The notes below the pieces were generated by a model. That model was not told where the DNA came from. It did no database searches and saw only the letters and a list, made by a program, of their open reading frames with translations. This document shows, one piece after another, positions 13,439-15,760 of a DNA stretch of 64,000 nt. Within the stretch, counting starts at the first letter, position 1. Every line of letters begins with the position of its first letter. Made by a program: the position numbers and the translations under genes. Source of the stretch: Caballeronia cordobensis (lineage in GTDB: Bacteria; Pseudomonadota; Gammaproteobacteria; Burkholderiales; Burkholderiaceae); contig NZ_FCNY02000001.1 in assembly GCF_001544575.2 (NCBI RefSeq), positions 186,001 to 250,000 on the forward strand, given 5' to 3'.

Positions 13439-13831
13439 TTAACGCTTCGAGAACTGCTTCCGGCGGCGTGCCTTGTGGAAACCGACCTTCTTACGTTCCA
13501 CTTCACGCGCGTCACGCGTCACGAAGCCAGCGTTCGACAGTTGCGACTTAAGCGTTGCGTCGTAGTCCATCAGCGCACGGGTGATGCCGTGGCGAACCGC
13601 GCCTGCCTGACCCGTTTCGCCGCCGCCCGACACGTTGACCTTGATGTCGAACGTGGTGCCGTGGTTCGTGAGTTCCAGCGGCTGACGCACGATCATCAGC
13701 GACGTTTCACGCGAGAAGTAGTCGGCGATGGGCTTGCCGTTGACGACGATCTCGCCCTTGCCCGACTTGATGAAGACACGAGCGACCGCGCTCTTGCGGC
13801 GGCCCGTACCGTAGTTCCAGTTACCGATCAT
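13439..13831 (-). CDS. rpsI: 30S ribosomal protein S9
   Basis: 130 aa, standard length. The N-terminus [16 protein letters not shown] and the basic C-terminal tail RRRKQFSKR, whose last residues reach the P-site tRNA, are both typical of bS9/uS9. It lies 11 nt after rplM in the conserved rplM-rpsI operon. Confidence 0.98.
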
Positions 13832-13842
13832 GTGGGCTCCCC

Positions 13843-14271
13843 TTAGATCTCGAGCGACTTCGGCTGTTGCGCCGAGTGCGGATGCGTAGCTTCGGCGTAG
13901 ACCTTCAGCTTCTTGATCATCGCGTAGCCGAGCGGACCCTTCGGAAGCATGCCCTTGACAGCCTTCTCGAGCGCACGGCCCGGGAAGCGCTCTTGCATCT
14001 TGCCGAACGTCGTTTCGTAGATGCCGCCCGGGTAGCCCGAGTGACGATAGTACTTCTTGTCCGTGGTCTTGTTGCCCGTGACCTTCAGCTTGCCGGCATT
14101 GACGATGATGATGAAATCACCGGTGTCGACGTGCGGAGTAAATTCAGGCTTGTGCTTGCCGCGAAGACGGCGTGCCACTTCGCTGGCGACACGGCCGAGA
14201 ACCTTATCCGTCGCGTCAATCACGTACCATTCGCGCGTCACCTCTTCGGCTTTTGCGGAAAACGTCTTCAT
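13843..14271 (-). CDS. rplM: 50S ribosomal protein L13
   Basis: 142 aa, uL13 family: [20 protein letters not shown] at the start and [16 protein letters not shown] in the middle are diagnostic. It is the first gene of the rplM-rpsI operon, expressed from a strong promoter at 14415-14444, giving a leader of about 135 nt. Confidence 0.98.
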
Positions 14272-14414
14272 GATCGATCCAAAAAATTGAATTGCCCTTG
14301 AACTGATTTGAACGCTGCTCGGCCCTGCTTATATGGACGCCAGGATTCGTGAATCCGGCGCTTGCAGGCTCTCACAGGCCTCCCTCCGCGGGCGTAGGGC
14401 GAAGAGAACTTTGA

Positions 14415-14444
14415 ATTATAAAGGGATTTCCGCTGTCGCGTCAA
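14415..14444 (-). promoter_or_regulatory. Sigma70-type promoter of rplM-rpsI
   Basis: On the minus strand: -35 TTGACG (14444-14439), 18-nt spacer, -10 TATAAT (14420-14415). Initiation near 14408 would leave a 5' leader of about 137 nt before the rplM ATG at 14271. Confidence 0.8.
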
Positions 14445-14471: not shown

Positions 14472-14535
14472 GAAAAAAAGCCCGGGCAGCTGTGGCTCGG
14501 GCTTAATCCACCAAAGGAGGAGGTGGAGGAGACAG
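14472..14535 (-). ncRNA. Predicted small RNA with an anti-Shine-Dalgarno-like loop
   Basis: An intergenic minus-strand transcription unit with all parts visible. The promoter is TTGCCT (14569-14564), a 17-nt spacer and TATACT (14546-14541). The predicted transcript is about 63 nt from near 14535. Hairpin 1 has stem CCACC (14526-14522) / GGTGG (14512-14508) and the 9-nt loop UCCUCCUUU. A short linker follows, then a terminator hairpin of 7 bp (14504-14498 with 14484-14478) and a run of seven U (14479-14473). The loop shares CCUCCUUU with the 3' end of 16S rRNA and could pair with AAAGGAGG ribosome sites. It resembles C/U-rich-loop double-hairpin sRNAs known in proteobacteria, but I cannot name a family. 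No credible ORF is present. Confidence 0.7.
14473..14504 (-). terminator. Rho-independent terminator of the predicted sRNA
   Basis: AAGCCCG (14504-14498 on the minus strand) pairs with CGGGCTT (14484-14478), directly followed by a run of T (14479-14473). There is no protein gene on this strand immediately upstream, so the terminator itself points to a short non-coding transcript. Confidence 0.8.
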
Positions 14536-14540
14536 AGACG

Positions 14541-14569
14541 AGTATAGGCACGGTCATGCTGCGAGGCAA
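14541..14569 (-). promoter_or_regulatory. Promoter of the predicted sRNA
   Basis: On the minus strand: -35 TTGCCT (14569-14564), exactly 17 nt, then -10 TATACT (14546-14541). About 14 nt further upstream lies the AT-rich dyad GTGAAA/TTTCAC (14583-14599). Confidence 0.7.
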
Positions 14570-14853
14570 GAAGATTTGCATGGTGAAAATGAATTTCACT
14601 ATTTGAAATATCGACTCGATCAAAGATTCACACTATTTTCTACGTAAATTCATATACTTACCCGTAATCTCCAGTCTCCGATCGCGAGCTTTCTACGTCT
14701 AGAGGATTCGCTCGAACGTCCGAAGAAAGAATCGCCACGTCGATTTCCGCTTCGTCAACCAGTGCTTGCTCGTAAGCAGCGCCAGAATCAAACGCAATGT
14801 GCCGCTACAATGGACGCCTCTGTAACGATGCGTCGAGCAGCTGGAGCCTGAGC
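14570..14853. other. AT-rich intergenic stretch upstream of the sRNA and the OsmC-family gene
   Basis: Clearly lower in GC than its surroundings, especially 14570-14680. It contains the dyad at 14583-14599 and TACAAT at 14806-14811, which may be the -10 of the OsmC gene although no good -35 is seen. I see no coding region. Confidence 0.5.
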
Positions 14854-15337: not shown

Positions 15338-15344
15338 GAATGAC

Positions 15345-15760
<416 letters not shown>

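Follow-up and report, generated by a model that had tools for sequence, protein, structure and literature searches.

The minus strand of the window (the whole stretch of 64,000 nt of Caballeronia cordobensis DNA that was analysed) carries at positions 14472..14534 a small RNA (sRNA) gene of 63 nt which is linked to rplM and which, by its Rfam match and fold, is a new member of the already described family RF02278. We consider it probable that this sRNA, which likely corresponds to NcS27 of Burkholderia cenocepacia, represses nutrient-uptake and catabolic genes through pairing of its 5' tail at their ribosome-binding sites. An sRNA supposed to be unnamed has thereby received a name, and the part of it to be tested has been identified.

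The sRNA gene, its family and its locus

Analysis of the minus strand revealed promoter-like boxes (14541..14569), TTGCCT at 14569-14564 and TATACT at 14546-14541 with a spacer of 17 nt, followed from 14534 by the tail UGUCUCCUCC (14525..14534, nt 1-7 unpaired and the last three in the stem), a first stem-loop (14507..14527) and a terminator hairpin with a run of seven U (14473..14504). The -10 box ends 6 nt before the tail, with no 5' leader. The complete non-coding gene of the preliminary description was thus found in all its parts, except that its first stem, given there as 5 bp, is formed by UCCACC/GGUGGA and is 6 bp long around the described 9-nt loop UCCUCCUUU (14513..14521). The minimum free energy of the fold of 14534-14472 was -22.6 kcal/mol (z -3.74) and was equalled by none of 200 shuffled sequences. 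The CCUCCUUU that the loop was said to have in common with the 16S rRNA is real, since the 16S rRNA of this genome includes GGATCACCTCCTTTCTCGAG at its 3' end.

The first description had found no named family for the sRNA, while the search of the whole window against Rfam matched RF02278, 'Betaproteobacteria toxic small RNA', to 14472-14534 over model positions 1-64 of 64 with a score of 69 bits (cut-off 50; E 7.7e-12), which is more than chance. Membership of two other families was rejected, as the scores of 22.7 bits for the RF02877 NmsRb model (cut-off 52) and of 22.0 bits for RF02837, anti-hemB (cut-off 49.5), were too low. The NmsR siblings of Neisseria (RF02877) are arranged in tandem but resemble the window sRNA in their C/U-rich unpaired stretches, which PMC5688073 describes as complementary to ribosome sites in metabolic genes. 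RF02278 has several dispersed copies in beta-proteobacterial hosts, and six matches, five of them over the cut-off, were found in the 8.2-Mb genome of the window. The own-genome copies L001, L002, L004 and L005 have the same tail and two-hairpin plan; the sixth and weak copy (L006, 1501-1566; 35.2 bits, under the cut-off) has an intact tail and a different first hairpin. At E <= 0.001 a match was obtained in all 58 same-genus genomes, in 57 of them above the cut-off, and in none of the 14 control genomes.

The minus-strand frames next to the sRNA fit rplM (13843..14271, named from its sequence and in the earlier note) and rpsI (13439..13831), so that the sRNA does lie just upstream of rplM-rpsI as stated there. 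The window rplM is 98% identical to that of named Caballeronia, and 593 related loci were found with it. Among the best 80 of these 593, all of them named, 46 carried the sRNA upstream of rplM on the same strand: 41 were found by a sequence pattern and rest on it, and five (L010, L011, L015, L018 and L061) by Rfam scoring, which was applied to the 39 pattern-negative loci only. Some of the remaining 34 loci end at contig edges. A model of our own, constructed from the 46 rows and the window, matched 48 of the 80 named loci at E <= 0.05, two of them weakly, and of the same-genus rplM loci fetched, the window's own among them, 29 of 30 carried the sRNA.

The shared strand and the position upstream of rplM in many genera would also suit a leader or attenuator that acts in cis on rplM-rpsI instead of a trans-acting sRNA, all the more as the rplM leader contains GGAGGGAGG (read as CCTCCCTCC on the plus strand at 14379-14387, about 108 nt before the rplM start), which is a candidate for partial pairing with the C/U runs of the sRNA. 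However, the sRNA has its own terminator, after which a separate promoter-like site of rplM, TTGACG-18-TATAAT, can be read in the sequence (14415..14444, minus strand, not part of the sRNA); sRNA and rplM lie between 135 and 928 nt apart in the 46 loci, and other family copies are not located at rplM. A cis-acting leader was rejected because of the own terminator and the variable distance, and we regard it as hardly tenable. The link to ribosome supply that the neighbourhood had suggested was also rejected, since neither the tail nor the loop motif is present at the start sites of rplM and rpsI; the promoter-like site of rplM and the family copies elsewhere argue in the same direction.

An RNase P RNA (class A, 288 bits) is located beside the sRNA at 15344-15756 of the minus strand, and RNase P RNA also occurs upstream of the sRNA in L010, L011, L015 and L018. 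In L015, a locus of the Burkholderia cepacia complex (Bcc; Burkholderia aenigmatica), the sRNA lies 666 nt from rplM and is itself preceded by the RNase P RNA, an order shared with the window.

NcS27 of B. cenocepacia J2315 is like the window sRNA a RF02278 'double-hairpin RNA' with two hairpins and C/U-rich unpaired parts. It is reported to lie between the genes BCAL3348a and BCAL3349 (minus strand), BCAL3348 being a ribosomal protein gene (PMC4603805, PMC5688073). This place fits the rplM-linked copy of L015, one of the 46 loci above, and its equation with the window locus is deduced from the gene names in these papers. NcS27 is described as 92 nt long and processed to a short form (PMC5688073), whereas the window copy is leaderless and predicted to be about 63 nt long. 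The 30-nt leader of L015, counted from the expected start, and the 62 nt that follow give 92 nt, as published for NcS27. Since the leader of about 30 nt is absent from the window, its sRNA was filed under RF02278 and is likely the NcS27 counterpart by position only.

Conservation of the structure, the tail and the loop

The model-fitted alignment comprised 55 matches in 47 distinct rows, including other family copies and the two weak matches. Both stems covary: the covariation score was 0.355 against a shuffled mean of 0.136, a value reached in none of 500 shuffles and by none of the slid versions, in an alignment which was fitted to the structure under test and is hence biased towards it. Paired states were found in 97.4% of cells and changes on both sides in 11 of 14 pairs, and further pair types numbered 21 against 16.9 in shuffles (4 of 500 as high). 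Helix 2, that of the terminator, supplies the bulk of this evidence, while helix 1 has changes on both sides in just one to three rows per pair. The covariance for which the preliminary description had proposed a test of both stems was therefore found, mostly in helix 2.

The tail GUCUCCUCC (GTCTCCTCC) was intact in 46 of 47 rplM-linked rows, in all 29 same-genus rplM copies and in all 33 other copies, while the loop CCTCCTTT was intact in 27 of 47, 8 of 29 and none of 33, respectively. The loop core CTCCTCC was found in 35 of 47 rplM-linked rows, 28 of 29 same-genus copies and 29 of the 33 other copies, and CCTCC in the loop of 43 of 47 rplM-linked rows. The other copies (34 looked for, 33 counted, L089 not being found) are not independent because a single 32-nt sequence accounts for 29 of the 33; in this commonest type the loop repeats the tail and lacks the 16S-like CCUCCUUU. 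As CCTCCTTT is missing from so many copies in which core and tail are retained, it is the exact identity with 16S that varies; the C/U core is preserved, and the tail most of all. The copies ncS03, ncS05, ncS62 and other members of RF02278 have the same tail and two-hairpin plan as the window sRNA but occupy other loci.

The preliminary description had proposed that the loop copies the 16S 3' end and pairs with AAAGGAGG sites as a broad repressor of translation, perhaps tied to ribosome supply. The two-hairpin structure and the sRNA are conserved in relatives as it had anticipated, and the C/U-rich unpaired parts suit pairing with ribosome-binding sites; the conserved 16S-like loop it had expected was found in a part of the copies only. 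In favour of this proposal stand the common CCUCCUUU, the well kept CTCCTCC and CCTCC of the rplM-linked rows and the toxicity reported for relatives cloned in E. coli (PMC4603805, PMC5688073), while the few same-genus copies with CCTCCTTT, and its absence from the other copies, with 29 of 33 of one sequence type, argue against it. Since the core is so well kept, the loop may matter more than the tail-based explanation allows.

Ribosome-site words and candidate target genes

Target words were counted in 1.2 Mb of the genome (three contigs of 400 kb each, both strands), a target being a word before an ATG with 80 open codons. GGAGACA, a target of the tail, stood before ATG frames in 43 of 75 occurrences and ranked first of the 64 GGAGNNN words (median 7), followed by GGAGACG (36 of 168). 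The tail target AGGAGACA preceded an ATG frame 16 of 25 times, a share about equalled by a few other words, for example GCA after AGGAG (6 of 9). On the contrary, AAAGGAGG occurred four times and never before an ATG with 80 open codons in the same 1.2 Mb. A simple frame caller (967 frames) recovered nine AGGAGACA ribosome sites as compared with 16 by the direct count of motif, ATG and 80 codons, and direct counts were therefore used. The frequency of GGAGACA before starts may have causes other than the sRNA. In these three contigs (L191-L250), in which GGAGACA leads the GGAGNNN words, 8-nt matches to the 16S tail were rare.

Over the whole genome AGGAGACA-N0-9-ATG was found in 127 places against two for the reversed pattern, GGAGGAGACA-N0-10-ATG in 12 places (11 sites) against none, and AAAGGAGGAG-N0-10-ATG in one against none; two or more places may represent one site with two ATGs. 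Complements were counted over the 13,605 candidate ATGs in all frames of the 1.2 Mb. Within the 25 nt upstream, 27 starts had a perfect 8-nt complement to the tail, one to the loop and three to the 16S tail; a 7-nt complement was found at 93 starts for the tail and 37 for the loop, and a 6-nt complement at 262 for the tail, 216 for the loop and 195 for the 16S tail. The ribosome sites of this genome do not favour long anti-Shine-Dalgarno matches.

These counts bear on the pairing of the loop. The 6-nt and 7-nt loop complements do occur, though the tail has more of both, but AAAGGAGG-type mRNA leaders, the targets first proposed, were found before no ATG frame in the 1.2 Mb and AAAGGAGGAG with its ATG only once in the genome. 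A loop decoy was rejected because AAAGGAGG starts are so few. The anti-Shine-Dalgarno copy is thus there as a CCUCCUUU common with 16S, while as the working part it is neither the best-kept stretch nor provided with many matching targets, and we judge a broad repressor acting through the loop to be decidedly unlikely.

A further alternative, which we consider unlikely, gives tail and loop equal weight as joint pairing sites on every target. A prediction of this kind has been published for ncS03 and BCAL3043, with both regions placed in one duplex by the figure legend (PMC5688073). Both parts are C/U-rich and mostly kept, and Sites 1, 2 and 3 are described for S17 of Bordetella pertussis (PMC11722255); however, the long perfect complements at 8 nt favour the tail, and the own-genome copies L004 and L005 have no CCTCC in their loops.

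The preferred reading is that the tail UGUCUCCUCC would pair with AGGAGACA-type ribosome-binding sites, that this pairing would block ribosome entry and that nutrient-uptake and catabolic genes would be turned down, with the C/U-rich loop probably serving as a secondary and less important site. The word AGGAGACA gives a list of likely targets. Pfam analysis indicated that 23 of 58 AGGAGACA genes encode MFS or solute-binding proteins as compared with 7 of 60 genes with other AGGAGNNN sites (one-sided P 0.0004; group counts tallied by hand). The transporter category was defined once the first batch (13 of 28 against 4 of 30) had been examined, and it was fixed before the second (10 of 30 against 3 of 30). 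Of the 127 AGGAGACA places, 70 were sampled from 100 listed; two of 30 loci and six of 40 were dropped as they had no 80-codon frame, and the first 30 of the remaining 34 were scanned. The controls came from three contigs and the targets from many, and within contigs C39 and C42 the excess was 6 of 23 against 4 of 40 (one-sided P 0.09). The other AGGAGACA genes included some for acyl-CoA dehydrogenases and one for a hydroxyphenylpyruvate dioxygenase.

By analogy, these transport and catabolic genes agree with the published effects of NcS27 and with the pairing of S17. The targets predicted for NcS27 lie in transport and carbon metabolism (PMC5688073, PMC10987360); its overexpression is reported to slow growth and its silencing to speed growth (PMC5688073), and a review lists slower growth of the overexpressing strain on phenylalanine, tyrosine, glycerol and galactose (PMC10987360). 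Both ncS03 and ncS27 are named among 14 core detrimental fitness genes of two host models (PMC12013268). S17, compared here by its description, resembles the window sRNA in its short form of 67 nt, in the pairing of its 5' end and first loop and in the transporters among its targets; the 5' end (Site 1) pairs with 9 of the 11 tabulated targets, and for one target direct repression is backed by compensatory changes (PMC11722255). Unlike the window sRNA, S17 lies between BP3151 and coq7 and arises from a 190-nt RNA by RNase E cleavage; it is described as non-toxic to exponentially growing E. coli BL21 (PMC11722255). Expression, processing, growth effects and direct target repression are taken from these papers on relatives, and the same would be expected by analogy in Caballeronia cordobensis.

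The 5' leader and the upstream element

The leader was assessed in the Bcc, Paraburkholderia and Pandoraea rows and in the 29 same-genus loci. A leader of about 30 nt between the -10 box and the tail, mostly starting like CATTGGTTG, is present in Bcc, Paraburkholderia and Pandoraea rows and is kept in 8 of the 29 same-genus loci, while in the other 21, the window included, it is missing and the -10 box ends about 6 nt before the tail. This absence in same-genus rplM-linked copies is a new detail. A limited literature search, carried out mostly outside the subscription journals, gave no account of the Caballeronia copy or of leader loss among the matches listed. Since the 5' leader is absent, the primary transcript of the window is predicted to start at the tail and, with about 63 nt, to be already the short form.

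Upstream of the sRNA promoter the minus strand carries TTTCA-N5-TGAAA-N5-TTTCA (14584..14608), which with its three half-sites 10 bp apart looks like an operator. It is the sole match in the genome at up to one mismatch; a regulon of the element was rejected, and no co-regulated gene is proposed, because of this single genomic place. The close form TTTC[AG]-N5-TGAAA-N5-TTTCA was found in 15 of the 21 leaderless same-genus loci and the piece TTTCA-N5-TG in one of the 8 leader-bearing loci. The 21 leaderless loci showed a mean identity of 0.80 to 0.92 from -80 to the tail as compared with 0.46 further up.

The phylogenetic tree constructed using 840 nt of rplM-rpsI DNA from 36 rows (L014 being left out by its start pattern and L118, which has no sRNA, included without a label) indicated that the leaderless copies cluster, with two changes against 11.2 in shuffles and none of 500 as low. 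The eight leader-bearing same-genus rows were placed inside the leaderless rows with weak support (82/97), so that the tree is compatible with a single loss as well as with a loss followed by regain. It is possible, and we propose it tentatively, that the Caballeronia lineage shed the leader hairpin, that the short form is made at the promoter and not cut from a precursor, and that a brake on carbon uptake came under transcriptional instead of processing control through the three-half-site operator. Leader-bearing and leaderless copies at one locus in one genus provide a natural comparison for the role of processing in this family. The leader-bearing same-genus copies upstream of rplM, each with a 5' leader hairpin, are L120, L122, L123, L124, L125, L127, L130 and L141.
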